IMG/VR virus record: IMGVR_UViG_3300021365_000061
Span: 1 to 31,773 of that record
Direction: 5' to 3' (one strand)
DNA from: a virus
DNA length: 31,773 nucleotides
The position numbers and the translations under genes are program-made. Shown here piece by piece: positions 2,452-31,773 of the stretch (its first letter is position 1; every line of letters begins with the position of its first letter). The notes under the pieces are model-generated. The model was given only the letters and a program-made list of their open reading frames with translations, made no database searches and was not told the DNA's origin.

Positions 2452-3939
2452 TTATGCAAAAGTAAATACCATATAAACATGAATAAAAACTGGAGGGAGA
2501 TTTTTCTTAGCACCACCATAATTAGCGGGAGTTAGATCAAATTTTAAGTTATCTGAACTAAATGAACTAAAGAATGTATTAGTTGCTTGGTTAGAAGAGA
2601 TTGTTGAACTTAATGCACTTGAAATTTCATATCCATTGCTACCTAACCCAAATGTTGAAACTGCATATTTATCAGTATTTGCATTATAAAAATATCCGGT
2701 TACAGATAACGGTGGTTGGCTTTCTGAGCCAAATTGGAATGTTACATCATTTACAGCATTTAAAGCTACTGTTACTGTATTACTAGAGTAAGGTGATGTT
2801 GTAATTTGACTTGAAGTATCAGGGTCACTATTAGTATCATAATTAATTCTAATAGCATAAGCAGTAGCACCACCACCACCACCACCTCCAGATTGGTCTA
2901 CCCATTCTGTATTGTAGTCTGTACTGTTAATTTTAGCTAATACTTGACCTGATGTACCACCTGTAGGAATACCTTGACCTGAAGTTCCTGATGTACCTGC
3001 TTCACCTGAAGTTCCTGATGTACCTGCTTCACCTGAAGTTCCTGATGTACCTGCAACACCCGATGTACCTGAAGTACCTGCGACACCTGATGTACCTGAT
3101 GTTCCTGCAACTCCTGAAGTTCCAGATGTTCCTGATCCTGATGTACCTGAAGTACCAAATCCTGATGTACCTGAAGTACCGAATCCTGATGTACCTGAAG
3201 TACCGTTTGAACCTGAAGTTCCTGATGTTCCTGCTACACCACTAGTTCCTGAAGTACCTGCGACACCTGAAGTTCCAGATGTTCCATCTATACCTGAAGT
3301 TCCAGATGTTCCTGATCCTGATGTACCTGAAGTACCAAACCCTGATGTACCTGAAGTACCAAATCCTGATGTACCTGATGTTCCTGCGACACCTGAGGTT
3401 CCTGAAGTACCTGCGACACCTGAGGTTCCTGAAGTACCATTTTCACCTGATGTACCTGAGGTACCGCTTTCGCCTGATGTACCTGAAGTACCGCTTTCGC
3501 CTGATGTACCTGAAGTACCAAATCCTGATGTACCTGAAGTACCATTTGAACCTGAAGTTCCTGATGTACCTGCAACACCCGATGTACCTGAAGTACCTGC
3601 GACACCTGATGTACCTGATGTTCCTGCAACTCCTGATGTACCTGAAGTACCTGCGACACCTGAAGTACCTGCTGGGCCTTGTGCTCCTGAAGTACCTGAA
3701 GTTCCTGAAGTTCCTGCGACACCTGATGTACCTGCTGGACCTTGTGCTCCTGAAGTACCTGAAGTACCGGATGAACCGGAACCACCACCACCACCTGTGT
3801 CTACAGGTGAGATAGATCCATCTGAAAATTTATAATAAAGTTTTCCTGAGTCAGCACTGTTGGAGAAAATAGCTACAACTCCTGTTTGAGGAGATTCTAT
3901 TCCTGATGTGCCAGTATTTGAAATATTAATTTGAGCCAC
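2452..3939 (-). CDS. Collagen-like fibre protein, 495 aa
   Basis: The start is a GTG at 3939: the frame is closed by a stop five codons upstream and there is no better ATG. The resulting N-terminus (MAQINIS) matches the MAQ start of the other fibre gene. Residues 1-48 form a small N-terminal domain that could attach to the particle. A poly-Gly hinge follows, then about 265 residues of Gly-X-Y triplets, mostly GTS with GVA, GEA, GES and GSN, interrupted by GF and GS. Next comes a linker (GGTSGQVLAKINSTDYNTEW) of a type common just before fibre tip domains, a Gly7 hinge at about 351-357, and a 138-residue Ser/Asn-rich C-terminal domain that may be the trimeric tip. It is probably a virion surface fibre; its receptor is unknown. 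Confidence 0.8.
   Translation of the reverse strand: MAQINISNTGTSGIESPQTGVVAIFSNSADSGKLYYKFSDGSISPVDTGGGGGSGSSGTSGTSGAQGPAGTSGVAGTSGTSGTSGAQGPAGTSGVAGTSGTSGVAGTSGTSGVAGTSGTSGVAGTSGTSGSNGTSGTSGFGTSGTSGESGTSGTSGESGTSGTSGENGTSGTSGVAGTSGTSGVAGTSGTSGFGTSGTSGFGTSGTSGSGTSGTSGIDGTSGTSGVAGTSGTSGVAGTSGTSGSNGTSGTSGFGTSGTSGFGTSGTSGSGTSGTSGVAGTSGTSGVAGTSGTSGVAGTSGTSGEAGTSGTSGEAGTSGTSGQGIPTGGTSGQVLAKINSTDYNTEWVDQSGGGGGGGATAYAIRINYDTNSDPDTSSQITTSPYSSNTVTVALNAVNDVTFQFGSESQPPLSVTGYFYNANTDKYAVSTFGLGSNGYEISSALSSTISSNQATNTFFSSFSSDNLKFDLTPANYGGAKKNLPPVFIHVYMVFTFA
2974..3780 (-). repeat. Collagen-coding repeat tract, copy B
   Basis: About 800 bp of degenerate 9/18/27-bp units encode Gly-X-Y triplets within the 495-aa fibre protein. 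Units such as acctgatgtacctgaagta recur exactly many times and also occur in the tract at 1-447, so the two genes share stretches that could recombine. Confidence 0.9.
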
Positions 3940-7928: not shown

Positions 7929-9584
7929 TTATAGAGAGTTCAATCCGTTTACGTAGATCTTACCGTAGAATTCTGGTCTTAACATTTTCTTCGCGTAGCG
8001 AGTCAATAGACCTTTTCTTGGTACGAATGTATCTGGATCGTATACCAAAGGAGTCATGATTAATGGAATGTATGGAGCGAATACCGCACCAGCTTCCAAG
8101 AACTGAGTACCTCTGTAACCTAACAAGATAGTGTTTTCTGTCATGTATGGGTTTTTGTATACTTTGTAACGACCGTTCAATTGACCAGCTTTCTGGATAC
8201 CGAACGCGTACTCCATTTTTTCAGCATCTGAGTTATCAGCTGCGAATCCAGGAATACTTTCCAAGATAGTAGATACAGTTGGAGAAACTACCATGAAATT
8301 AGCACCACCTCTTAAGGTTAATCTGTGAATTTCGTTTGATAATTTGTTTACTTTAGTACCTAAAGTTTGGAACCACTGACCTTGAGTGTTGTAGAAACCA
8401 CCGTTACCAGCACCTTTCTGAGTGAAGTCATCACCAGAAACGTAGAACTCGTTACCGTTAGCTGACCAGTACTCAGTACCAGCTGCAGCATCTTGGATCA
8501 ACATAGCTAAGATTTCAGAATCGATTTCCAAAGAAATGTACTCAGAAAGGATGTTTGTTACCTCAGCTTCAGCATCTAATGCTTGGTAAGCATTTAAATC
8601 CTGAGCGAATTCTGGAGTCCATACAGCTTTCAATTTTCTTGTTTTAGCAACAAGAGCCATTGAACGCATTTGGATGTTGATTTCTGGGATAGCAGCTGTG
8701 TTTTGGAAATCACCTAATGTGTTATCCTGTGGTACAACTGAGTATAATAAATCAGCAGCAACCTCTGCGTTACCAGCAGATTGAGAAACGAACAAGTACA
8801 AGTTAGTAGCATCAGCATAGTTGAATGCGTTTAACTGAGAAGCAACTTCTGCGTTAGAAGCAGCGAAACCTCTTACAGCATCAACATCAGCAGCACCGTT
8901 ACCAGCAGCTACAACAGCAGCACGAGTAATAGTTACTTTACCAACTTCACCAGCAGCAACAGAAGCAGATAGGTTTGAATCGAAACCTACATCTTTCCAA
9001 GATGCTGAAGTGTAAGCAGCAGTTAAAGCTTCAGAGTGTGAGTTCAATGAGAAACCGAATCTACCTGGACCGTATAAACCGTTACCAGCAGCACCGTTAG
9101 TTTCGAATGGGTACTCACCTGAGTTTTTAGTACCGTAAACTGAGTCACCTTCTGTGAAAGCTAAAGGATCAGAACCAGTTTCGTCGTTCTTAGTTGAACC
9201 GTACTGGAAGTCTAAGTAAAATACTAGACCTGAAGGTAGGTTCATTGGCTGTACAGAAACGAATTCTTGAGCAGCGATTTGACCAAATACCTTTCTTACC
9301 AATGGTAAAGCGATACCAGCCCATTGAGCACCAGCACCTGCTTGAGCAGAAAAGCTGTTACCAACAGCACCTGGAGTAGGTAAACCACCATCTTGAGAGA
9401 TCTCAGTTACTAATTGTTTTGCTTGATTTTCTAGGATCATTGACATGCTGTTTTTATGGTTCTCGTTACCAAGACCTTCTAACAAACCTGTTTTATCCCA
9501 CTTGTTGGCTAATTTAGCCGCGTCAGACTGTAAGTTTTTCCAACTTCCAGCAGACTCATTCAAAAGAGAATTTAATTGTGACAT
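7929..9584 (-). CDS. Major capsid protein, gp23-like
   Basis: The 551-aa product matches T4-type gp23 in length (T4: 521) and in landmarks: a helical N-terminal propeptide, a Gly/Ala-rich arm, then a QEFVSVQPMNLPSG segment equal to the gp23 'VQPMNSPTG' region. The C-terminus is YGKIYVNGLNSL. The likely gp21 processing point is around LVTE-ISQ (residue 61), by analogy with the LTE/AE site in T4. Residues 76-87 (NSFSAQAGAGAQ) recur in the 164-aa product at 12989-13483. Codons are unusually C/G-ending for this window (TTC, TAC, AAC, AAG, ATC near the end), as expected for the most abundant protein. It follows the scaffold gene by 25 bases and is closed by a strong terminator. Confidence 0.95.
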   Translation of the reverse strand: MSQLNSLLNESAGSWKNLQSDAAKLANKWDKTGLLEGLGNENHKNSMSMILENQAKQLVTEISQDGGLPTPGAVGNSFSAQAGAGAQWAGIALPLVRKVFGQIAAQEFVSVQPMNLPSGLVFYLDFQYGSTKNDETGSDPLAFTEGDSVYGTKNSGEYPFETNGAAGNGLYGPGRFGFSLNSHSEALTAAYTSASWKDVGFDSNLSASVAAGEVGKVTITRAAVVAAGNGAADVDAVRGFAASNAEVASQLNAFNYADATNLYLFVSQSAGNAEVAADLLYSVVPQDNTLGDFQNTAAIPEINIQMRSMALVAKTRKLKAVWTPEFAQDLNAYQALDAEAEVTNILSEYISLEIDSEILAMLIQDAAAGTEYWSANGNEFYVSGDDFTQKGAGNGGFYNTQGQWFQTLGTKVNKLSNEIHRLTLRGGANFMVVSPTVSTILESIPGFAADNSDAEKMEYAFGIQKAGQLNGRYKVYKNPYMTENTILLGYRGTQFLEAGAVFAPYIPLIMTPLVYDPDTFVPRKGLLTRYAKKMLRPEFYGKIYVNGLNSL

Positions 9585-9609: not shown

Positions 9610-10881
9610 TTATTTTAAACCTGCAAGTTTTTGCCATCTAGCTACCTGTGGATCAATTTCCATGATAGGAGCTTTTTTAGCAACACCAGCTGGTTTAGAA
9701 GCTGAACCTAATGATTCTTTAATTTGAGTTGTTGGTCTTGCAACCATACCCTCATTTAAAGTTTCAAAAATAAGTTTTACTTCTTTTACATTTGATGCTT
9801 TATCAAATGCTTCTAGAACCTTCACTTTCTGAGCTTCTTTTAAGTTTTTAGCTCTGAAAATTTTATTTGTGTAAAGCAATTTAGCGTTCAAAAGATTAGT
9901 TTCGTGAAGGTCAGATCTCAATTCCTCGATTTCTTTTTTCATTTCATCCATATCTTCTTTTTCGTCTTTCATACCGTCGAGGTAACCCTCTTCTTCGGCA
10001 TCAGTACGAGCATCTTCACCTAAGGATGATGTTTTACCTGCTCCTGATTTAGCCATACCACCAGTTGCACCTGCACCTGCTAGTCCTAATAAATCTTTCA
10101 TAGATACTTTTTCACCATCTACAGTTACGATTTTTGAAAGAAGTTCTTTATCGTTATAAGCTTTTTTCAATTTATCCATGATGCCTTCATCCATATCATC
10201 TTTGCCGTAGCCTTCATCCATGTCATCTTTTGCTTCATCGATTTCTTCTTTTGCTTCGTTAACTTCAACGTCTACTTCTGTGTCATCTTCTACATCGATT
10301 TCTTCATCGTCTTCAACTTCTTCGTCTTCAACTTCGAATTCATCACCAGCTTCTAATTCACCAGCAGTAACCATATCAGCGATTACGTCTTCGATAAATG
10401 ATTTTAGATCATCTTCTGATAAGTCGTCAAGATCAATTTCTTCATCTTCGTCTTTATCTTCCATGTCTTCTTTTTCATCTTCCATACCGTCCTTGTAGCC
10501 TTCTTCCTCAGCGTCAGTTCTTGCATCTTCAGATAAATCACCTTCGAGTTCAGCTAAGATTTCGTCTAGATCCATCTCTTCGTCTACTTCAGCTTCAGCT
10601 AAGTCTTTACCGTACTTCATTTTTTCTGTACGTTTAGTTTCTTTGTCTTCACCTCCGTCTTTACGATCAGATTTTTCATCGAGTTCTTCTTTAGCCTCGT
10701 TCATTTCAACATCGCTTTCTTCCAATTCTTCCTTTTCCATTTCTTCAAGTTTAGCTGAAAGCATAGACTTGAGTCTTGGTTCGAAAGCTTCTTCTAGAGC
10801 GACTTTTGCATTAGCAATAGCAGTTTCTTTAAGTGCTTTTGCGTCAGCGATTGCTTCTTTAAGCAGATCTCTGTTTGCCAT
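9610..10881 (-). CDS. Prohead core scaffold protein, gp22-like
   Basis: The 423-aa product is strongly acidic (long Asp/Glu runs) and probably mostly helical. It lies directly upstream of the capsid gene, where T4 keeps gene 22. The N-terminus is a helical Ala/Lys/Glu segment and the last 90 residues are a more ordinary helical region ending ARWQKLAGLK. Two copies of a 16-residue module, EDARTDAEEEGYxDG, occur at about 117-132 and 288-303. The same module is in the 356-aa and 399-aa proteins. LNEG near residue 375 fits the (L/I)xE cleavage rule of the T4 protease. It would form the prohead core and then be degraded. It is longer than T4 gp22 (269 aa), with the extra length in the acidic middle. 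The gp22 assignment rests on position and composition. Confidence 0.75.
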   Translation of the reverse strand: MANRDLLKEAIADAKALKETAIANAKVALEEAFEPRLKSMLSAKLEEMEKEELEESDVEMNEAKEELDEKSDRKDGGEDKETKRTEKMKYGKDLAEAEVDEEMDLDEILAELEGDLSEDARTDAEEEGYKDGMEDEKEDMEDKDEDEEIDLDDLSEDDLKSFIEDVIADMVTAGELEAGDEFEVEDEEVEDDEEIDVEDDTEVDVEVNEAKEEIDEAKDDMDEGYGKDDMDEGIMDKLKKAYNDKELLSKIVTVDGEKVSMKDLLGLAGAGATGGMAKSGAGKTSSLGEDARTDAEEEGYLDGMKDEKEDMDEMKKEIEELRSDLHETNLLNAKLLYTNKIFRAKNLKEAQKVKVLEAFDKASNVKEVKLIFETLNEGMVARPTTQIKESLGSASKPAGVAKKAPIMEIDPQVARWQKLAGLK

Positions 10882-10912
10882 AATTACCTCAAAATTTAGT
10901 TTGTGGAGTACG

Positions 10913-10971
10913 CCTATTAGGAGACGTAATAAGAATTATTTAAATAGTGAATACTATATAGATCATAGTAT
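10913..10971 (-). promoter_or_regulatory. Two stem-loops in the leader of the scaffold/capsid transcript
   Basis: The gap of about 180 bases between gp21 and the scaffold gene contains, after a terminator, two inverted repeats with the same geometry. They lie at 10951-10971 (ATACTAT, 7-base spacer, ATAGTAT) and 10913-10933 (CTTATTA, 7-base spacer, TAATAGG on the sense strand, one G-T pair). Both would lie in the 5' leader if transcription starts just past the terminator. They could be mRNA-stabilising hairpins or an operator. The sense sequence GAGG a few bases before the scaffold ATG is one of few ribosome-site-like stretches here. Confidence 0.4.
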
Positions 10972-11009
10972 ATTGCTCACGTTACAGCTATACATATATA
11001 AAGAGACAT

Positions 11010-11037
11010 AAAAAACGCCCCCCTTTCGGAGAGCGTT
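11010..11037 (-). terminator. Rho-independent terminator between protease and scaffold genes
   Basis: The sense strand forms a 10-bp stem (AACGCTCTCC / GGGGGGCGTT, two G-T pairs) with a GAAA tetraloop, followed by six T. It lies 28 bases past the protease stop and makes the scaffold plus capsid genes a separate transcription unit. Confidence 0.88.
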
Positions 11038-11064
11038 CTTTGGTAGCGCCTCAATACAGAGGTA

Positions 11065-11670
11065 TTAGTCTAAATAACAAGTACAAGTATTAGCACATAA
11101 AATTTCATTTACAATACTATTAACACCTTGATATTTATTTATTTGAGCTAATTTACCTTCGGTAACAATTTCCATATATGAACCTGGGTTAGATGGAGTT
11201 GAAACAAAATCCCAACATAGTAATTCGAAGTCATCTTGTACCTCTAATACACCACCCCTATCTTCTAATGAACCCATTCCACGTGAAGATACACCTACAG
11301 TAATATTATTTTCGATTAATGCTTTTAAGATATTACCTGATGGGGTAGGTAGAATTTCAATTTTACCTAATACTTTATCTCCATCCCACCACATTTCAGT
11401 AATATTATGGGATACATTTTTTAAGTTAATAACAGAGGATTCTGGGTGGTCTAACTCACCTAATGCTCTGTTTTGTTTAACTGATTCCATGTATTTATCG
11501 ATCTCACGTTCCCATAATTCCTTTGGGTAGTAACGACCATTACCATTTTTTACTTCAGCAGTAGCTAGGATACCCTCAACCATAGGGTTACCTCTATTCG
11601 AGAGTTTCCCTTCAGTTAACATTAAACCTCGTGGTTTAAAGAGTTGAGTTTCTACTAGTACTTTTTTCAT
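11065..11670 (-). CDS. Prohead core protease, gp21-like
   Basis: The 201-aa product has the hallmarks of the T4 gp21 prohead protease, a serine protease of the herpesvirus-assemblin-like fold. These are a GELDHPE motif (His75) and a GVSSRGMGS motif (Ser128 or Ser129 as nucleophile), followed by the WDFVSTPSNPG strand. Length is close to T4 gp21 (212 aa). It should cleave scaffold and capsid propeptides after (L/I)-x-E. Its own sequence contains LTEG near residue 18 and VTEG near residue 169, which could be self-processing sites. The last ten residues (CANTCTCYLD) are unusually Cys-rich. It is one base from the upstream 356-aa gene and ends at a terminator. Confidence 0.9.
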   Translation of the reverse strand: MKKVLVETQLFKPRGLMLTEGKLSNRGNPMVEGILATAEVKNGNGRYYPKELWEREIDKYMESVKQNRALGELDHPESSVINLKNVSHNITEMWWDGDKVLGKIEILPTPSGNILKALIENNITVGVSSRGMGSLEDRGGVLEVQDDFELLCWDFVSTPSNPGSYMEIVTEGKLAQINKYQGVNSIVNEILCANTCTCYLD

Positions 11671-11671
11671 C

Positions 11672-12742
11672 TTAGTCTTCGTACTCTTCAGTTACTTCAT
11701 CTACCATCTCTGGTTTAGAGTAAGCTTTACCACACATTTTTTCGTACAACTTTTCCATTTTAGCCTTTCTTTTTTCAAGGTCTTTAACTTCACGTTGCAT
11801 TTCTTTCATTTTAGCTTTATCAACTAGTTCAGATAGATTATCATCTTCTGTTACCATTGAAATTCTATGGTTTTTAGTTTCAATTGCTTCATCTAAAGCC
11901 TCAATTTGAGCCTCTAATGTAGTAATTTTACCTGCTTTTTCGATTTCAGCTAATTTAGAATCTACTGTTTCTTTTTTAACTTTTTTCTTTTTAGCTTTAG
12001 CTTTTTCGTCTGCTTTTTCATCACGCATTCCATCTAAATAGCCTTCTTCTTCGGCATCTGTACGGGCGTCTTCTTGAACTGGAGCTGGGATATTCATAGG
12101 CTGAACATCAACATAACCACTAAGAGTTTCTTTTAATAAATCTTTTAAATTTGCCATTACATCTTCTTTAAGTTTTACTTCTTCCATACCAGATGAAGCA
12201 TATTTACCTTTTAATTCTTTATCCGATACAGCTAAACCAGGAGCATCTTCTGTATAACCAATGCCTTTGATACCAAACTGAGCATTTGTAGCATAATATG
12301 TTCTATCTTTAGTCATATTTTTAGCTACAATTTCTTTTAACTCATCTACAGTCTTACCAGCATTTTTAGGATCTTTCATTTCTGTATAATACCCTTGTAA
12401 AAAAGCTTCACCATATAAATTATCAATGAGTTTTGGGTCCTTATAATCGTAACCCTGGGTTTCCATATCAACTACTTCTTTAGTAGGTTCCTTTTCTACT
12501 GCTTTAGCCTCTTCAGCTAAAAACTTTTCCCAATTAGCAAATGGGTTAGATGTATTCTGAGTTACCACACCACCAACACCTTCAGATAGGATTGATTTTT
12601 GTTTCAATACCTTTACTGCTGTAGGGAAATTTGTTAGGTTATTAAATAAGTTAGGAAACTGTCTTAATGCAGTTTTCATAAACACATCCTTGTGTCCTTT
12701 TCCTTCTTTAATAAGGTTGTACTGTTCTTGAAGTGTTTTCAT
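11672..12742 (-). CDS. Putative prohead core/accessory scaffold protein, 356 aa
   Basis: The family is not recognised by name. The N-terminal 50 residues (LIKEGKGHKDVFMKTALRQF and on) form a compact helical segment ending at LSEG, a possible gp21 site. Residues 209-219 read GYVDVQPMNIP, matching the capsid segment VSVQPMNLP. Residues 223-238 hold one copy of the EDARTDAEEEGYLDG module, followed by a Lys-rich stretch and a long coiled-coil-like C-terminus (about 260-345). The gene lies between portal and protease, where T4 encodes core proteins gp67 and gp68, and overlaps the 81-aa gene by one base. The shared modules suggest it enters the prohead with the scaffold and is cleaved; this is inference. 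Confidence 0.7.
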   Translation of the reverse strand: MKTLQEQYNLIKEGKGHKDVFMKTALRQFPNLFNNLTNFPTAVKVLKQKSILSEGVGGVVTQNTSNPFANWEKFLAEEAKAVEKEPTKEVVDMETQGYDYKDPKLIDNLYGEAFLQGYYTEMKDPKNAGKTVDELKEIVAKNMTKDRTYYATNAQFGIKGIGYTEDAPGLAVSDKELKGKYASSGMEEVKLKEDVMANLKDLLKETLSGYVDVQPMNIPAPVQEDARTDAEEEGYLDGMRDEKADEKAKAKKKKVKKETVDSKLAEIEKAGKITTLEAQIEALDEAIETKNHRISMVTEDDNLSELVDKAKMKEMQREVKDLEKRKAKMEKLYEKMCGKAYSKPEMVDEVTEEYED

Positions 12743-12988: not shown

Positions 12989-13483
12989 TTATTTCTTCCC
13001 CCATAAATATTTAACTTCTACACCTGGTGTAGAATGTGGTTTAGGAACTAATTTGTAGCCAAACTTTTTAGTATACATACCTCCATCGGCATATTTACCT
13101 TTTTTATTTTTACTAAAAGCATTTGGGGTAGCATATTGGGCACCAGCACCTGCTTGAGATGAAAAACTGTTGCCTCCACCTGTAGTACTGGTTTCATCTA
13201 AACCTTTAATGCGAGCATATTCTTCAGATTTATTATTACGTAAATAAGTTCTTAACTCATTTCTACGTTTTCTAATATCTAAATAATGGTCTTTAAAAAA
13301 AGCTTCACCTGTTATATCAGCTACCTCTTTAGCTGTTTTCATTAGGTCAGTAATATCCTTAAATAATTTTTTGTAATCTGCTGTGTAATCAACGTCCCAA
13401 GTAATCTGACCCGTTTCAGGGTCAATATTAGTTACAGTAGTTTGTATACCACCTTTTACTTCAGTATCGCCAATTTTAGCCAT
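12989..13483 (-). CDS. Putative head protein with capsid-like arm, 164 aa
   Basis: The N-terminal part (1-95) is an ordinary globular or helical sequence of unknown family. Residues 105-116 read NSFSSQAGAGAQ, matching capsid residues 76-87 with one change. The DNA is also alike (13140-13171 versus 9328-9359, three differences in 32). Just before it is GLDE, an L-x-E site, as LVTE precedes the capsid arm. After it, the sequence reads YATPNAFSKNKKGKYADGG and a basic tail ending KYLWGKK. It overlaps the 285-aa gene by 8 bases. A likely role is a minor prohead or head protein processed by gp21; not proven. Confidence 0.7.
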   Translation of the reverse strand: MAKIGDTEVKGGIQTTVTNIDPETGQITWDVDYTADYKKLFKDITDLMKTAKEVADITGEAFFKDHYLDIRKRRNELRTYLRNNKSEEYARIKGLDETSTTGGGNSFSSQAGAGAQYATPNAFSKNKKGKYADGGMYTKKFGYKLVPKPHSTPGVEVKYLWGKK

Positions 13484-14369: not shown

Positions 14370-16229
14370 TTACTCTTTAATTCTTGATTCATCTAATAAT
14401 GATTCTTTGCGTTTATCAGATTTAAACACAATTTCTTTGTCTAAACCTTCAAATAAAGAGCGATTTTTTATAAATTGCTTTTGTGCATTTTCTCTTAAAC
14501 CTATAGGCTCATTAGCTTTCATTTCTTTTTTACCTAAACGATCTTTACCAAATACATTATCTTGAGTATTAATATTTGATGCTTTTTCTTCAGGGCGACC
14601 TAATGGCTTTTTCTCATCATACCCATCAGGTACATTACTTGGATCACTTTCCATTCTACCTTGACCGTATAATGAAGCTAAATCGTGAGGTGTACCATAT
14701 GAACGTCCTGTTGTTAATGGGTCATTGCCTTCAGTCTCAATTTGAGCTAAACGGAATTGACGTTTTTGATCCTGAGCTATTAAGTCTCTGTATTCTTCAT
14801 ATTGGTCTTCACTAAAGTGGAAAATATGCTCGTAGATCCAATCTGTTGGGACTAACTTGTTTTCCATCATTTGTGATGCTAGATCTACTTTTTCTTTCAT
14901 TAATGCGATCTTTTCTTGATCGTAGATAATAGAAGGTGTAGTTAAATCTAGGGTAAAATTAGTCATTTGTTCGTCTCTATACCCTTGAGCATACAAGTGA
15001 ACTAATGCAATTTTATATAATTCTGAAATTAGGATACGTTGGATACGATCAATTGTACGACCGAAACGAATATCCTCAGCTGCTAGTGTTGCTTTACCTG
15101 ATAGATCAGCATCGTAACCCATAAATGCTTTTGGTACTTTAAGGGCAGCAAATAATTTTTCTCTTAAGTATTCTACATCTTGAATACCATCATATGATAA
15201 ACCAGGTGTAGTTTCAATTTGAGTTGCTTGATCATTTCCTCTAACTGGTAGATAAAAATCCTCAAGTAAGTTTTGCATGTTATATTTCAAGTTATATTCA
15301 CCTGTTTGCTCATCCATATATGGAGTACGCTTAAGTGTTGAAATAGTTTTTTGCATGAAGTTTTCTACTTCATTTGGTGGAATAGAACCAACATTAATTT
15401 TAAAAATACGTTTTTCAGGAGCTCTTACAATTCTATGGATTAACATAGCATCTTCCATTAACGCATATTGTTTGTAGAGTTTACGACCTGGTTCGATATA
15501 TGATCTACCATAAGGTAGATAATTCATATCCGAAAGTAAACGGAAGTGAGCAATTTCATAATTATCAAATGTAACCATATTAGCATTTTGCTGGTTTGGA
15601 ACATTATAATAACCAGAAGAAGAACCACCATAGAACCCATCTGGGTTATAGTTAAATATTACTTTAGATGGATTTTCTGGGTCGAAATTTTCTTGTCTTT
15701 CAATGTGGTATGCTGAATAAGGTATTACGTTATAAACACCAAATTTTTCTGAGATCTCTAGTTTAAGGAAGAAATCACCATATTTACACATTTGACGAGT
15801 CCAAGACCAAAGATTAAATTCAACATTTAATACATCGTAAAATAAGTTATATAGAATTTTTTGAATATCTTCATCGGAGGATTTAATTTGTAATACCTCA
15901 CCCATATCATTTTTAAGTGAACATTCATCAGCTACAATATCTAGAGCAGAAGCTACAATAGCATCTGTATCCATTATATCATAATCTGAATAGAGCATAG
16001 TTCTCATGTATTGGTAGTTCATATTGAACTGAGAACCATATAATGAGGTTGAAGATGGGTTTTGGTAGACTCCTCTATATCTATCCATTAAAGAGTTTGT
16101 AGCAAACTCACCAGAGGTCTGGATATGATCGGTATCAACCGTTTTTAATTGATTACCTCCTACATTACGGATAACAACATCCGAGGAAAATAATCTTTGT
16201 AATCTAGTAAATAAGCCTTTATCAGCCAT
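14370..16229 (-). CDS. Portal vertex protein, gp20-like
   Basis: The 619-aa product matches the T4 gp20 portal family, the 12-mer ring through which DNA enters and leaves the head. Recognisable segments are DTDAIVASALDIVADECSLK, WSWTRQMCKYGDFFLKLEI, IAHFRLLSDMNYLPYGRSYI, LIHRIVRAPEKRIFKINVG and GYDADLSGKATLAAEDIRFG. T4 gp20 is 524 aa; the extra length is mainly a C-terminal hydrophilic tail that contains LFEG and LDES, possible protease sites. It lies between the terminase (28-base gap) and the 285-aa gene and is preceded by the conserved AT motif. Confidence 0.95.
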   Translation of the reverse strand: MADKGLFTRLQRLFSSDVVIRNVGGNQLKTVDTDHIQTSGEFATNSLMDRYRGVYQNPSSTSLYGSQFNMNYQYMRTMLYSDYDIMDTDAIVASALDIVADECSLKNDMGEVLQIKSSDEDIQKILYNLFYDVLNVEFNLWSWTRQMCKYGDFFLKLEISEKFGVYNVIPYSAYHIERQENFDPENPSKVIFNYNPDGFYGGSSSGYYNVPNQQNANMVTFDNYEIAHFRLLSDMNYLPYGRSYIEPGRKLYKQYALMEDAMLIHRIVRAPEKRIFKINVGSIPPNEVENFMQKTISTLKRTPYMDEQTGEYNLKYNMQNLLEDFYLPVRGNDQATQIETTPGLSYDGIQDVEYLREKLFAALKVPKAFMGYDADLSGKATLAAEDIRFGRTIDRIQRILISELYKIALVHLYAQGYRDEQMTNFTLDLTTPSIIYDQEKIALMKEKVDLASQMMENKLVPTDWIYEHIFHFSEDQYEEYRDLIAQDQKRQFRLAQIETEGNDPLTTGRSYGTPHDLASLYGQGRMESDPSNVPDGYDEKKPLGRPEEKASNINTQDNVFGKDRLGKKEMKANEPIGLRENAQKQFIKNRSLFEGLDKEIVFKSDKRKESLLDESRIKE

Positions 16230-23935: not shown

Positions 23936-24441
23936 TATGCTTCTACGTCTGTTTCTGTATCTACTTCTACATCATCTCCACCAGCATCAACTGTTACATC
24001 AGTTGAGGTTTCTTCTGGGAAATCACCACCTGAACTGCCTGTATCGAATTCAGCAGCATCTTGGGTTCCTCCTATATCAGGAGCACCATATCTTAAAATA
24101 CGAGCAATAGCGTTTTCAGCATTCTCTTGCTCGTTTAAGTTAAGTAAGTAATATTTTTTACCTTCAATCTCAGCAACAAATGTTCTAGGAGTATAAACTA
24201 AATAGAAATTTTCACCGTTTTTAAGGTTAATACGGAATGTAGTGGGTTTTGGAGCAACCCAATCAATTGATGCTACGAATAAATCAAATTGTGGACCTAA
24301 TAGAGATACTATTACGTCCTTCAATTCTGGGAATTTAGTTAATTCGTCATATTCGACTGCAGCTTGCTCTATGCTTACTCTATCTCTATAAACGGTTTTA
24401 ACTAAGACCTTGATTTTATCTCTTAGTTCCTGTTTAGTCAT
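23935..24441 (-). CDS. Unknown protein with acidic C-terminal tail, 168 aa
   Basis: Residues 1-60 are helical (MTKQELRDKIKVLVKTVYRD, of the same style as other gene starts here). Residues 65-120 form a beta-rich stretch (TTFRINLKNGENFYLVYTPR). The last 40 residues are a disordered, acidic tail (VDAGGDDVEVDTETDVEA). The tail resembles the acidic segments of the scaffold and the 399-aa protein. It is linked by TAATG junctions to both neighbours, so it belongs to the same translation chain. No family is recognised. Confidence 0.6.
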   Translation of the reverse strand: MTKQELRDKIKVLVKTVYRDRVSIEQAAVEYDELTKFPELKDVIVSLLGPQFDLFVASIDWVAPKPTTFRINLKNGENFYLVYTPRTFVAEIEGKKYYLLNLNEQENAENAIARILRYGAPDIGGTQDAAEFDTGSSGGDFPEETSTDVTVDAGGDDVEVDTETDVEA

Positions 24442-25793
24442 TATCCTTTTTGTTTAGCAGTTGGACCTTTACCACCACCTTTGGCTTTATATGAAGCTAC
24501 AGCACCAGCAATTGCTTTAGCAGCTTTTTCTGATTTGCCTTGTTTTTTGATTTTGTTTACTAAAGCATCGTAATCTTCGCTTACTTCATCTTTAGCATCC
24601 ATCTTCTTATCCCAATATCCTTTAGGTAAGCCTTCTTTGACACCTTCTCTTTTTTCTGCAAATGCAAGTAAATCGTATGCTCTACCAATTGCATCTGATA
24701 ATTCGTTATGAGCTCTATCTTCATTACCCATAGCAGCTAAATCGTATGCTCTACTTAAAGGATCATGCAATTCATCATCGCCTAAAACATTGTAGAAGTA
24801 AGCATCGTTGTCTTGTAAGTGCTTTTCAAGTTCAGTATCGTCCATATCTAAGCCCATTTCCATAGTTTGGATAGCGGCTTTAATATCGTTGATTGAACCT
24901 AGTGACCAAGTACCTTCTTTAACAGGTTTTTTATCTTTTTTATCTTTAACCCCATAAGCTTTTTTAACAGCATCTCCATAGGCCTTTATAGATTTATCAT
25001 CAAACTCATCAATTGCCTCTGTGTCTTGAGCTACATCTACCATAACATCGATTTGTGGTTCGTTAACCTCAAAATCTAGGTAATGTTTAGCTGAAACCAG
25101 CATGTCTTTAGATTTGATGATTTTGGCTTGCCACCAGTGTGGGAAATCTACTTCACCTTTACCTTCAAACTCATCTACCATTTGATAAAGTTCCATAGCG
25201 TATTTTCCAATACGGTATAGGTCAGCTTTTAGCATGTGTGGTTCGTTGTCTTGATGACCTAAATCTAAATCTTCTTTGAAGACATCATTAACATCATCTG
25301 CACTTAAATCAGCAAATTTAGTGTTATCTAAAACACCTTCGAAATCTTCAGGATCTAAAAATTCTTCTCCTACTAATTTGAATTCCTTATCTTTAGAGAT
25401 TTTAGGCATTTTATCCGCTACAGCAGCTGCATCATCGTCAGTGAATTCTTCGCCTCTACCAATCTTATCGCTAGCAGCTTTTTCAGTAGCATCTACTTCG
25501 CCTATATTTTTTTCGATAGCAGCTCCACGTTTTTTTTCGTAGTCCGAAAGTTTACCGTCTTTATTTAAGTCGGCTTTCTTTGGGTTTTGAAGAGCATCTT
25601 TTACTAACTCTTTGATTTTATCTTGATCCATTCCTTCTGATTTCTTTTTTGCTAAATTAGTAGCGCGACCATACATTACTGCTTCCGCATCCTTACCATA
25701 TTTCTGAACTAGCGCACGTTTGTTATCCTTCATTTTCATGATGATATCTTCGCGTTTAGCTAATTCAGATTTGGTAAGTTTACGTTCGTTCAT
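24441..25793 (-). CDS. EF-hand-containing virion-like protein, 450 aa
   Basis: Residues 75-86 read DLNKDGKLSDYE, a perfect 12-residue EF-hand loop (Asp, Asn, Asp, Gly, Leu, Ser, Glu at the ligand positions). It follows a helical Lys-rich N-terminus and precedes YEKKRGAAIEKN. Residues about 175-245 (HMLKADLYRIGKYAMELYQM ... FPHWWQAKIIKSKDMLVSAK) resemble a helical module I recall from other phage structural proteins. The C-terminus is basic and Gly/Lys-rich (KAAKAIAGAVASYKAKGGGK). Only one EF-hand is seen, so calcium binding would need pairing or act as a single loop. It is four bases from the Hc1-like gene and overlaps the 168-aa gene. Role unknown; an internal head or core protein is plausible. 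Confidence 0.7.
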   Translation of the reverse strand: MNERKLTKSELAKREDIIMKMKDNKRALVQKYGKDAEAVMYGRATNLAKKKSEGMDQDKIKELVKDALQNPKKADLNKDGKLSDYEKKRGAAIEKNIGEVDATEKAASDKIGRGEEFTDDDAAAVADKMPKISKDKEFKLVGEEFLDPEDFEGVLDNTKFADLSADDVNDVFKEDLDLGHQDNEPHMLKADLYRIGKYAMELYQMVDEFEGKGEVDFPHWWQAKIIKSKDMLVSAKHYLDFEVNEPQIDVMVDVAQDTEAIDEFDDKSIKAYGDAVKKAYGVKDKKDKKPVKEGTWSLGSINDIKAAIQTMEMGLDMDDTELEKHLQDNDAYFYNVLGDDELHDPLSRAYDLAAMGNEDRAHNELSDAIGRAYDLLAFAEKREGVKEGLPKGYWDKKMDAKDEVSEDYDALVNKIKKQGKSEKAAKAIAGAVASYKAKGGGKGPTAKQKG

Positions 25794-25989: not shown

Positions 25990-27189
25990 TTATTTGATTT
26001 TATTCCACATTGGGAATACTACTGATTCGTTAAGGTTTTCCTTAACTTCTTCGTCTTTAGCTTCTTCTAAACCCATTTCAGCTTCCATTTCAGTAGTGTT
26101 AACGTTTACATCCATGTCATCCATTTCAGATACGTTTCCAGCTACGTGTGAACGAGTAAAGTAAGTAATTGTGTTGCCAATTTGATCCATTAATTTCTCA
26201 TCACCAAAGGCTTGAGCAGCTTCTTGAGCTTTCATAAGTAAAGCTTGTACTTCTTCTACATCTTCGCTTTCGCCAGGCATTGAAGCTTTAATATCAACGT
26301 CTACTTCTGATTCTTCGTCGTCAACTTTAACGTCTACATCTTTTTCGATATCAACATCGATGTCTTCGTTGTCTTCAACTTCAACATCTTCTGCTTCTGA
26401 TACTTTCATGTCCTTTAACTTGTCTTCGATATCGTCTTTAGCGTCTTCGAATCCGTCTTTGTAGCCTTCTTGTTCAGCATCTGTACGAGCGTCTTCAAGC
26501 ATAGCTGCTTTGATCATTTCTTTTAATTCTGATTTTTTCATTTTATTTGATTTAATTTCTTTAACTTCTTCTTCTTTAAGATCATAGTCTCTTATAATAC
26601 CACCTAAGTATAATTTAGCATCATCAGTTGACATTGCTCTAACTAATTCTCCAACTGCATTTTCAGCACCAAGAGAATCAATGATTTTTTCAGCCATATC
26701 AAATGCTTCATCATCTAAAGTTTCTTTAATTTGTCCTAAAACTTCTTGCATGTAATCGTCTGTTTCTTTTCTACGTTCCATGTAGTCAGTATCTCCACCC
26801 ATTTCAGCTTTTGATTGTTCAGCATCTAACATTGTAAGTTCACCTTGATCAGAGATAGTAGCTACTAAACCACCTTTTTCACTGTTTCTAACTTCATATC
26901 CACCTTCAATTGGTTTGATTCTAAACGAACCACCCCAACCTCTACCGGTACCATATTTAGCATCGTCTTCTGGGGTTTTTTCTGTTGCTTTAGTATCTAA
27001 TTCGAATGAATTTCCGTCTATATCACCTACGGTGTAGGCCATGTAAGTTGAAAATCTATCACCTTCAGCATCTTCTTCAGTAAAGGCATCAGCAATATAT
27101 TGTGCTAAGAACTTTACCTCTTGGCCATTAAGTTCTTCTTTTAATAGCTTACCTTCAGCTAAATATTTTGTTAAATCGAAATTGTTCAT
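25990..27189 (-). CDS. Acidic virion/core-like protein with DARTDAEQEGY module, 399 aa
   Basis: The first 215 residues form one region starting MNNFDLTKYLAEGKLLKEEL with an L-x-E site (LAEG). At residue 217 a second start-like sequence occurs in frame (MKKSELKEMIKAAM), directly followed by the LEDARTDAEQEGYKDG module (231-246) and a long acidic stretch. The last 100 residues are helical, ending NESVVFPMWNKIK. The protein therefore looks like a fusion of two pieces. The module is shared with the scaffold and the 356-aa protein, so a prohead core role is proposed. A TATTTAT-like sequence lies 27 bases before the ATG. Confidence 0.7.
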   Translation of the reverse strand: MNNFDLTKYLAEGKLLKEELNGQEVKFLAQYIADAFTEEDAEGDRFSTYMAYTVGDIDGNSFELDTKATEKTPEDDAKYGTGRGWGGSFRIKPIEGGYEVRNSEKGGLVATISDQGELTMLDAEQSKAEMGGDTDYMERRKETDDYMQEVLGQIKETLDDEAFDMAEKIIDSLGAENAVGELVRAMSTDDAKLYLGGIIRDYDLKEEEVKEIKSNKMKKSELKEMIKAAMLEDARTDAEQEGYKDGFEDAKDDIEDKLKDMKVSEAEDVEVEDNEDIDVDIEKDVDVKVDDEESEVDVDIKASMPGESEDVEEVQALLMKAQEAAQAFGDEKLMDQIGNTITYFTRSHVAGNVSEMDDMDVNVNTTEMEAEMGLEEAKDEEVKENLNESVVFPMWNKIK

Positions 27190-29164: not shown

Positions 29165-29737
29165 TTACTTCTTTAAAGACTTAAGGTACTCAATAGTTTC
29201 TCCAATGCTTTTAGTAGCTAATTCTTTATTAACACCACCTTTCCAATTCTGCACCTCACCTGCTTCAGAAATAAATCCTTGATTTGAATCAGTAAGTGCT
29301 TCTTCTAGGTATTGTTCTACACCTTCAATCATTTTATCAAGTGATGAATTATCTAATTCTTTTTTCCATTCATCAAATAAACCTTCTAATTTAAGATCCA
29401 TTTCAAATTTTGCTTGACAATTAAAACAACGTCTAAAGAATTTATATACAGGGTCATCTAAACGAGCTTTCATTACTTTATCACAGCTTGGACAAAACAT
29501 AGGCATTAATGCTTCTTTTGCTTTATCTAGCCTGGTGATATTTTGTTTTAAACCATCTTTAATAGTCCATTGACGGCCATCTTCAGTCCAAACATCACCT
29601 TCTTCGCGATGAATTTTTTGTTTTGTATAACCAACACCACCAGTAGTACGCTCATCTGCTTTACCAGACATTACATTACGTACACGTTGAACGTCTTTTT
29701 TAGAAAACTCTTTTTTTAGAACATTGTCTTGACTCAT
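29165..29737 (-). CDS. Zinc-ribbon protein, 190 aa
   Basis: The product has a CPSC pair (Cys82, Cys85) and a CFNC pair (Cys104, Cys107), spaced as in a four-Cys zinc ribbon (MFCPSCDKVMKARLDDPVYK ... RRCFNCQAKF). The N-terminal region is basic (KKEFSKKDVQRVRNVMSGKA) and the C-terminus is helical (ETIEYLKSLKK). I recall similar ribbon proteins next to structural genes in T4-like marine phages, with no known role. It overlaps the fusion protein gene by four bases (ATGA), so the two are translationally linked. Zinc binding is very likely from the Cys spacing; DNA or RNA contact is only a guess. Confidence 0.75.
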   Translation of the reverse strand: MSQDNVLKKEFSKKDVQRVRNVMSGKADERTTGGVGYTKQKIHREEGDVWTEDGRQWTIKDGLKQNITRLDKAKEALMPMFCPSCDKVMKARLDDPVYKFFRRCFNCQAKFEMDLKLEGLFDEWKKELDNSSLDKMIEGVEQYLEEALTDSNQGFISEAGEVQNWKGGVNKELATKSIGETIEYLKSLKK

Positions 29738-31773
29738 AAACCTAATTTATCTAATTCTGTGTTAACTTGATTAGCGGATGTATATAAAATACCTATACCA
29801 CCAGCATCTCTCCACTGTTGGATATTATCTTCCCTATCATCAATTAAAATATGATTAGGAGCAGCATAATTTTTCTTTAAATATGATCTGGATAGGGTTA
29901 ATTTAGTACTTGGAGTTTTATCTCTTCTCCATAAACGTTTTCCTATCTTAGATAATTCACTACGTGAAGGTGAAGATAATAATTCATGATCAAATTGAGA
30001 TGCTCTGTTGTAAAGTGCTTCCCCACCAGGCATCCAAGACATACCACGCCAAAAACCTACACCGGCTTTATCTATAGCTTCCCAGAAACCTGTTGATCCA
30101 TGTTTTGCTTCAAATTCACGAGGCATCATACCTGTTAAATCTTTAAATTGTTGATCAAAATCAACTAACACCCCGTCCATATCGAGGTAAATTTTATAGT
30201 CCATAACCTTTTCTTCATTTTCGAATACCGGTAAAGATAATGCCTTTCTTCTGCTTCTCCAAAGATTTAGTATGATTTCTTTATCTTCTTTTGCCTCAAG
30301 ACCAGGAGCAATATCTAAGTAATTTTGGATAACATCTTTAAATGGTTTTCTAGTTTTTTTAGCTTTTAAATATAAACCTTGAAGCATAGCATCTACTTCT
30401 TTTTCAAGCTTATAGTAATCGCTTTGTGGTAGTATCTTAACTTTATTGATTAAATCACGGAGTTGAATATCATCATCCATGTATTTACCTGTTCTTAAAT
30501 TATCTCCGGTTTGAGTTAAATGCTCAATTTCATGTCTAATAACATCTGAGACATCAGCTGAGATTTTAGACCATGCTTGGGGTAGTACTTTTGGGTTTAC
30601 TTTAAATAGGGTAGCTATAAATGGGAATTTATCTTCTTCTTCACCACTATTTGAAGTTCCATCTACCTCGTATCCGTCTACTTTTTTATCAAATTCAACC
30701 ATACCAACGTAATTGAATTCAATTTCTCTACCTTTACCATCTACATCATCTATATCAATATCAACGAATGATTTTTTGGGCATTGGTTTCTTTTTAGAAT
30801 CCTCAACCCATTTATTGATTGTAGCTTTAGTTAGTTTAGTAGTTAATGAATCGTAAGCACCTTCAGCCATTAATTCACGAGCAAACTGGTTTAAGCCAAA
30901 TGGATCTTTACCTAAATTCTTATCAAAGCCTTCGCTTACTACAGGAGATAACATTATTACCTCATCTGAGGTGCTCATTTTCCAGTCTCCAGGAAGCTTA
31001 GATAAATTTTTGTTAATAAATGCTTGATATAATTTACCACGTTTGGAATCTGGGTTAGCGTATCTACCTTCTGTATCATCTTTAGCGTAGAATTTAACTA
31101 AATCTAAAGTAGTAGAATCGATCTCGTTTACTCTGTTTATCAATTGAATGATAATATCTGTAAGAGTAGCTAATATTTTATATTGTTCACCTTTGTTTAT
31201 AGCATCGTCTCCACCTTCTTCAGTAGTAAAGTCTACACGAAGTGTAGTCATCGCTAATTCATCTTCAGGTTTATCGATTGAAGCATCAACTGTAATTCTA
31301 TATCTAGTTCTAGATTCAGGAGAGATAACCTCAATAGCAGGTAACATATCGTAATACTCTACTGTATCCTCGTCTTGTTTTCTAATTTTACGCTCGATTT
31401 CTCTAGCTATTACATCAATGCGTGAGGGTCTCCATTCTAGCTTTGCAGCTGATGCGTCTCCGATTTCGTTTAAGCTATCAGTCCAATTTCTAAACGTCAT
31501 TGTACCTTTTAAGTTAGCTTCAGCTTCAATATCGTTTAGGTAATCGTCTTCCTGAGTATTTGTAGTTGCGATACCTTCTAATCTACCTTCCAGATTTTGA
31601 ATGTGGTGGATCATTTCATGCGCATAACTACGTGCTATATCTTTGGGATGACGCCCTTCAGTATATAGGACAATAACCTTGTTGATTGGATCATAGTACG
31701 CCGTCTTTCCGAAGAAATCCCGAGCGTTTTCAGTATCACCATCTACAAATTCGAGTCCAGGTAAAGGTTCAAT
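29734..31773 (-). CDS. Fusion of two metallopeptidase-like segments with a C-terminal HAD 5'-nucleotidase-like domain (partial)
   Basis: The frame is open from the right edge to the stop at 29734, so at least 679 residues are visible and the N-terminus is missing. Numbering from the window edge, HEMIHHIQN (52-60) is an HExxH zinc site with a possible third ligand in IEAEANL (about 82-88). A second site is HEIEHLTQ (414-421) with KEVDAM downstream. The last 155 residues start DYKIYLDMDGVLVDF (motif I, Asp531 and Asp533) and hold LLSSPS, a Lys region and ILIDDREDNIQQW (motif IV, Asp645/646), as in 5'(3')-deoxyribonucleotidase-type HAD enzymes. No frame break separates the three parts. The peptidase segments could process a virion or host protein; the HAD part could act on nucleotides. 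Roles are inferred. Confidence 0.7.
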   Translation of the reverse strand: MEPLPGLEFVDGDTENARDFFGKTAYYDPINKVIVLYTEGRHPKDIARSYAHEMIHHIQNLEGRLEGIATTNTQEDDYLNDIEAEANLKGTMTFRNWTDSLNEIGDASAAKLEWRPSRIDVIAREIERKIRKQDEDTVEYYDMLPAIEVISPESRTRYRITVDASIDKPEDELAMTTLRVDFTTEEGGDDAINKGEQYKILATLTDIIIQLINRVNEIDSTTLDLVKFYAKDDTEGRYANPDSKRGKLYQAFINKNLSKLPGDWKMSTSDEVIMLSPVVSEGFDKNLGKDPFGLNQFARELMAEGAYDSLTTKLTKATINKWVEDSKKKPMPKKSFVDIDIDDVDGKGREIEFNYVGMVEFDKKVDGYEVDGTSNSGEEEDKFPFIATLFKVNPKVLPQAWSKISADVSDVIRHEIEHLTQTGDNLRTGKYMDDDIQLRDLINKVKILPQSDYYKLEKEVDAMLQGLYLKAKKTRKPFKDVIQNYLDIAPGLEAKEDKEIILNLWRSRRKALSLPVFENEEKVMDYKIYLDMDGVLVDFDQQFKDLTGMMPREFEAKHGSTGFWEAIDKAGVGFWRGMSWMPGGEALYNRASQFDHELLSSPSRSELSKIGKRLWRRDKTPSTKLTLSRSYLKKNYAAPNHILIDDREDNIQQWRDAGGIGILYTSANQVNTELDKLGL

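Follow-up and report, generated by a model that had tools for sequence, protein, structure and literature searches.

A recurrent, conserved 21-residue acidic unit in scaffold and core-type proteins of T4-like phages and a second phage group

The window analysed here is a 31,773-nt stretch of viral DNA, positions 1-31,773 of IMG/VR record IMGVR_UViG_3300021365_000061, and all of the genes and features discussed lie on its minus strand. It encodes a head block in which, together with one more distant gene, a short acidic peptide unit occurs four times in three predicted proteins. The head block is T4-like, as seen from a gp23-type major capsid protein (7929..9584; PF07068) with a predicted propeptide junction at LVTE/, a gp21-type prohead protease of the Peptidase_S77 family (11065..11670; PF03420, 7.9e-33) and a gp20-type portal (14370..16229; PF07230, 1.9e-68). 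This gp20-gp21-gp23 block holds genes for two of the carriers. One is a 423-aa gp22-like scaffold/core protein (9610..10881), assigned from the gene order protease-scaffold-gp23 and from a homologous open reading frame (ORF) upstream of gp23 in Flavobacterium phage immuto. The other is a 356-aa core protein (11672..12742), which begins with MKTLQEQYNLIKEG, is encoded between portal and protease and also has an immuto homologue. The third carrier, a 399-aa protein of MDNFD type (25990..27189), is encoded about 14 kb away. It has an IGNTITYFTR block and a targeting-like N-terminus, MNNFDLTKYLAEGKL (YLAE/G), of a type common to several otherwise different small proteins of related phages, and this shared N-terminus makes it a likely core-targeted protein. 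A preliminary description had called all three carriers prohead proteins; the 423- and 356-aa proteins do lie in the head block, and for the 399-aa protein the label is likely rather than proven. No carrier in the window matched a PHROG or Pfam family at E 0.001. A relaxed PHROG search (E up to 5) found nothing for the 399-aa protein and only weak matches for the other two carriers.

The scaffold carries copy 1 at 10465..10527 and copy 2 at 9952..10014, the 356-aa protein carries copy 3 at 12008..12070, and the 399-aa protein carries copy 4, a variant with Q, at 26431..26493. The copies were identified in the sequence and by pattern scan. Each directly follows a tripeptide that we write PhixE, where Phi is L, I, V, M or F, and V, M and F widen the strict L/I of T4. 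The tripeptides are LSE before copy 1 (10528..10536), a predicted gp21-type cleavage site, LGE before copy 2 (10015..10023), VQE before copy 3 (12071..12079) and MLE, with Phi = M, before copy 4 (26494..26502). A degenerate pattern with at most 2 mismatches finds 4 sites in the window versus 0.23 expected, and none of 100 shuffles reaches 4. The preliminary description had reported a 16-residue module at these four places. We recovered it at all of them (cores at 9998-10014, 10511-10527, 12054-12070 and 26477-26493) and found that the conserved unit reaches about 21 residues, with the consensus DARTDAE(E/Q)EGYxDGxxD(E/A)KxD.

We pooled contexts of the unit from a DNA-pattern scan of viral contigs (at least 120 stretches), other fetched loci and the window, giving 171 distinct contexts. 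T3, A5, E6, G9, D12, G13 and D16 are invariant in all of them, Y10 is present in 168, D20 is D in 169 and G in 2, and positions 11, 14, 15 and 19 are variable. In the seed copies, positions 0-6 and 8-10 were fixed by the scan pattern, as was E/Q at position 7, leaving unbiased only the columns from 12 on and the extra copies. At the unforced acidic columns, D12 and D16 are kept in 171/171 contexts and D20 is never E. The lack of D to E exchange at these fixed columns suggests a geometric fit rather than a need for bulk charge. The ORFs of the fetched loci contain 241 copies that differ from DARTDAEEEGYxDG by 0-3 mismatches (redundant copies included), zero copies at 4-5 mismatches and three chance-like strings at 6. 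The codons differ synonymously, as the preliminary description had stated. Among the window copies the proportions of synonymous (pS) and nonsynonymous (pN) differences are 0.61-0.99 and 0.09-0.21, respectively, with 45-49 of 63 nt identical. Because copy-to-copy means are 0.59-0.78 for pS and only 0.08-0.17 for pN, it is the peptide and not the DNA that is conserved, and the unit is under purifying selection.

The unit is carried by a small set of protein families. Clustering and sequence signatures sorted 135 distinct carriers into 83 gp22-like proteins, 22 members of the 356-aa family, 17 scaffold proteins of a second, non-T4 phage group, 12 MDNFD proteins and one other protein, whose start resembles that of a gp22 protein. 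In the at least 120 loci of the first scan, carrier ORFs comprised 83 gp22-like (the default label in this tally), 14 356-aa, 20 non-T4 scaffold and 10 MDNFD proteins. Three further scans (32, at least 120 and 30 stretches), in which families were assigned with the unit masked, added 153 carriers from new loci: 95 gp22-like, 26 of the 356-aa family, 15 MDNFD, 15 non-T4 scaffolds and two fragments, one of them a member of the 356-aa family by eye and the other a non-T4 scaffold. Some loci are stretches of one contig. No fifth family was found among the stretches listed (135 + 153 carriers), although rarer carriers may exist. Between one and three exact copies are present in 32 of 39 whole virus records (23/30 and 9/9), the other 7 having no exact match, and the only two copies of a 164-kb record lie 72 bases apart. 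When one genome each from 84,980 bacterial and archaeal species was searched, five stretches were recovered, on five contigs of metagenome-assembled genomes, all encoding the same phage proteins. Confinement to head-type proteins was the pattern to look for if the unit serves the head, and every carrier examined belongs to a scaffold- or core-type family; many unrelated non-virion carriers, the opposite outcome, were not seen across the genomes of these species.

The nearest isolates, immuto and Microcystis phage Mel-JY01, encode scaffolds homologous to that of the window and have 0 copies when their complete records are searched with up to 2 mismatches allowed. tblastn searches of 50,697 phage records with the low-complexity filter on returned nothing for the 399-aa protein or the non-T4 scaffold, and the tandem peptide gave two chance-level places in the same records, where the filter may hide acidic peptides. 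Absence of the unit from further isolates is therefore not firmly shown. Comparison of the peptide with PDB sequences gave one chance-level match. We also tabulated the unit in the scaffold and in the 356-aa protein across 81 loci (both 9, scaffold only 50, 356-aa only 1, neither 21), a weak co-occurrence confounded by kinship that we did not use.

The second phage group has a different portal type and protease. At locus L067, a 242-aa carrier lies directly upstream of a 316-aa gene; the protease is of Peptidase_S78_2/XkdF type (PF14550) and the portal near the carrier is of Phage_portal type (8.1e-10, 38.8 bits, just below the cut-off of 39.1). From its place in the gene order, the 316-aa protein is the putative major capsid protein; searches of PHROG, Pfam and PDB returned no match to it. 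A homologue of it (29-100% identity) directly follows 16 of 17 carriers, the 17th contig ending too soon, and no gp23-type neighbour was found in the non-T4 locus searched. Among 17 aligned non-T4 scaffold proteins that are 32-96% identical to the first of them, the unit stands out as an invariant island, in rows that were selected by pattern. A further sample was anchored on the 316-aa protein and blind to the unit; in it, 75 of 80 kept loci were examined and five begin inside the gene. An upstream ORF was present in 74 of the 75 and complete in 62; the unit was found in 25 of these 62, and the other 37 had no match even to a looser expression. Within this sample, identity to the 316-aa protein of L067 is at least 82% in every carrier, and the unit is missing from relatives at 63-81%. 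Among the carriers found by pattern, 9 of 16 have a 316-aa protein only 29-47% identical. The presence of the unit in this group is therefore patchy, because relatives at 63-81% identity lack it and yet carriers occur at 29-47%.

Presence is all-or-none in T4-like phages too. A portal-anchored, unit-blind sample of 80 loci included 31 with a complete gp22-like scaffold, of which 11 carry one to three copies and 20 carry none, and a 57-row portal tree (35 with the unit, 22 without) requires at least five gains or losses. The slots themselves can be followed between relatives. The unit follows (L/I)GE at the second slot of the scaffold in the window and in L103. Where this slot is unit-less, in L058, L129 (on one contig with L058), L087, L143, L144 and L177, it shows (I/V)GE, a few residues and then related downstream sequence. 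In the 356-aa family, matching flanks in the related phages L103 and L021 enclose either the unit or a DxDGDGD cassette. Among 114 distinct 356-aa relatives, the unit is present in 21, the DxDGDGD cassette in 35 and both in 0. The anchored slot could be located in 35 of the 114 and holds DxDGDGD in 20, the unit in 11 and neither in 4, one of which has a third cassette, KQGYDDREDESLG, that MDNFD proteins use too. DxDGDGD was not seen in 98 gp22-like or 17 non-T4 scaffolds.

PhixE directly precedes the unit in 123 of 125 gp22-like and 13 of 13 MDNFD contexts; its background frequency is 7.2% of gp22 positions outside modules (2581/35925). Where units are adjacent, PhixE stands before the second unit in 66 of 68 pairs. 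The linker is (L/M)xE in 26 of 26 cases in which copies are 24 residues apart, and 2 of four 4-residue linkers fit. Spacing otherwise ranges from 25 to 171, a variation indicating that the units act as separate beads. T4 gp21 is reported to cleave after L/I-X-E, described as a surprisingly short motif, and to break up the core proteins into numerous fragments, most of which leave the head (PMC9026906). In the window's clade, the predicted gp23 propeptide junction reads VxE in 96 of 96 anchored ORFs, and V therefore seems to be accepted by the gp21-type protease of this clade. The link to the protease is thus a predicted PhixE site ahead of the unit, in the T4-like families only.

The T4 core (gp22, gp67 and gp68) and its maturation by gp21 offer the closest comparison, with the same head-block position, an acidic middle without confident structure, an adjacent gp21-type protease gene and a PhixE that resembles L/I-X-E. 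Unlike the T4 core, the proteins described here have a repeated, near-invariant unit, a PhixE linker and exchange between slots and proteins, features on which the available portions of the T4 texts are silent. The T4 capsid targeting sequence (CTS) is likewise a short peptide that core-targeted proteins have in common and that is linked with a site of LxE type, and by eye the N-termini of the 356- and 399-aa proteins look CTS-like. However, the CTS is an N-terminal propeptide that precedes the cut and is removed at LxE (PMC9026906), whereas the unit is internal, repeated and located after the site. The string DARTDAE had no match in open-access full text, and searches of the same literature for scaffold motifs and modular core proteins of such phages returned no description of the unit. 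The preliminary description likewise knew of no such tag, and the sharing of the unit by two unrelated phage groups points to a head-assembly element that can be swapped and has so far gone undescribed.

We propose, with a probability of about 0.5, that the unit is a portable and interchangeable acidic cassette of the prohead core that is released by the protease and makes a specific assembly contact. In T4-like phages the gp21-type protease would cut in front of the unit, at the preceding PhixE, and tandem arrays would let the scaffold be chopped into individual cassettes as the core is taken apart. Prior to cleavage, the cassette would make a specific contact for assembly of the core or for recruitment of core-targeted proteins. 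A T4-specific partner (gp20, gp21 or gp23) is unlikely, because the same peptide is found in phages with another portal type and protease. The partner may instead be one common to unrelated phages, such as a metal ion, a host factor or cassettes on neighbouring chains that pair through a short AxxxGxxxG helix, none of which we rate above one in four. The suggestion of a docking, targeting or core-assembly tag is thus supported in part, for core assembly, by the selection on the unit and by its scaffold- and core-only carriers. Recognition by a T4-type capsid protein, portal or protease finds no support as an explanation of its conservation, since the peptide is kept despite a different portal and protease and with no gp23-type neighbour in the locus searched.

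Several observations weigh against this proposal. PhixE precedes only 10 of 17 356-aa contexts and 0 of 15 non-T4 scaffold contexts. The strict L/I form fits only 79 of 125 gp22-like and 3 of 13 MDNFD contexts, and of the widened residues V alone is backed by the clade's gp23 junction. PhixE is also common: outside the modules, Phi occupies position -2 for 2012 of the 5043 E residues in gp22. Contexts that are homologous do not count as independent observations. At column 19, one of the variable positions, both E and D occur. With 20 of 31 T4-like scaffolds lacking it, the unit is not a general requirement for assembly. Finally, AlphaFold2 models of two carriers are poor, with a mean predicted local distance difference test score (pLDDT) of 62.2 and 57.4. 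The score is under 50 in the stretch around copy 1 and for most of copy 2 as far as residue 300, where a helix starts at residue 298; the non-T4 copy has low confidence, with a helix starting at residue 146. The cassette is probably disordered, and models of this kind fit, without proving, a short linear motif, perhaps one that folds when bound.

Other roles for the conserved peptide can be considered. EF-hands are 12-residue loops with an acidic residue at position 12, and the unit could form a similar metal loop, D-x-E-x-E-G-Y-x-D, that stabilises the core until an ionic or proteolytic change releases it. The acidic alternation, the fixed Gly, the fixed D columns that are never E, and the mutually exclusive use of one 356-aa slot by the unit and by EF-hand-like DxDGDGD loops speak for such a role. 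However, the unit has E at positions 3 and 5 of the loop and no canonical 12th ligand: at column 15, which corresponds to position 12 of the loop, the 171 contexts have K (107), E (34), R (20), D (5), H (4) or A (1). Moreover, no EF-hand Pfam match was obtained for the unit, nor did two proteins that carry the DxDGDGD cassette give one, and that cassette is missing from the gp22-like and non-T4 scaffolds surveyed. We regard a metal loop as unlikely, though worth keeping in mind. We also doubt that the unit is primarily a self-association helix, in which A5, G9 and G13, with a Tyr after the first Gly, would glue core chains together. These three residues are present in 171/171 contexts and Y10 in 168/171 (A5, G9 and Y10 being forced in seed copies), and a helix is predicted to start in the second half of the unit (residue 298; residue 146), albeit in models of low confidence. 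The A/GxxxG spacing and the Tyr after Gly recall the AxxxG(xxxG) repeats of FliH/YscL, in which Tyr or Phe is favoured at x1 of AxxxG/GxxxG repeats (PMC2674601). Unlike those repeats with their successive xxxG steps, the phage proteins have a single A-xxx-G-xxx-G unit with fixed D/E, the same 356-aa slot also takes the DxDGDGD cassette, and pairing alone should permit drift between two lineages whose peptides are nevertheless the same.

It is less probable still that the peptide serves as an exosite that holds gp21 beside the PhixE bond. Its position directly behind PhixE in nearly all gp22-like and all MDNFD contexts is what an exosite would predict, but the peptide is kept alongside an XkdF-type protease where PhixE is found in 0 of 15 contexts, empty slots in relatives retain PhixE, and the short L/I-X-E motif is what is reported for T4 gp21 (PMC9026906). 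We give hardly any credence to the idea that the unit is a decay product, a functionless low-complexity acidic stretch spread by recent duplication. Although it sits in acidic, low-confidence regions of variable length, its synonymous sites are far diverged at low pN, and intermediate forms are missing, as the sharp gap at 4-5 mismatches in the fetched loci attests.

The proteins around the unit share other segments. Sharing among related loci was found with a family clustering that lumped together many acidic proteins and served solely to pick out short common segments. GNSFSxQAGAGAQxA follows the predicted cleavage site of the capsid protein and recurs in a 164-aa protein (12989-13483), two genes from the 356-aa gene; related loci show similar sharing. 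Near-identical N-termini (MDNFDLRKYLAEGKL and similar) open otherwise different small proteins in L005, L066, L119, L191, L197 and others, as well as the 399-aa protein of the window; in L197 they are present on two neighbouring ORFs, and they resemble a targeting sequence ending in LAE/G. The C-terminus of the 423-aa scaffold is RWQKLAGLK, and similar strings (for example EFKKMQKLAGLITE) open other proteins in L156, L181 and L193, possibly as a further shared core tag. In the immuto scaffold (L125 25006-26247), annotated as a 'DNA polymerase phi-like protein', the middle region contains two tandem copies of another segment, GFEQWLDSVSAQMDKFGKNNPTIQAIEKAV. Elsewhere in the window, a 450-aa protein (24441-25793) has a canonical-looking EF-hand loop, ADLNKDGKLSDYE, although Pfam gave it no match (E up to 1), a 495-aa protein (2452-3939) consists largely of GTSGTSG repeats with a collagen-like look, and a 626-aa ORF (29734-31614) has a central HEIEH and a C-terminal DMDGVLVDF that by eye looks like a HAD-type 5'-nucleotidase.

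What would such a cassette mean for head assembly? Tentatively, and at less than even odds, the unit may be a transferable 21-residue scaffold peptide that has moved between unrelated head-assembly systems because its partner (a host factor, a metal ion or the peptide itself) is common to both, and scaffolds may be built of exchangeable beads that the head protease cuts apart. A short, invariant and exchangeable element in unrelated scaffolds is also a handle, since one peptide could be used for fishing out its partner. The predicted cuts offer a defined set for proteomics, and the unit might serve as an internal tag to load cargo into phage heads.

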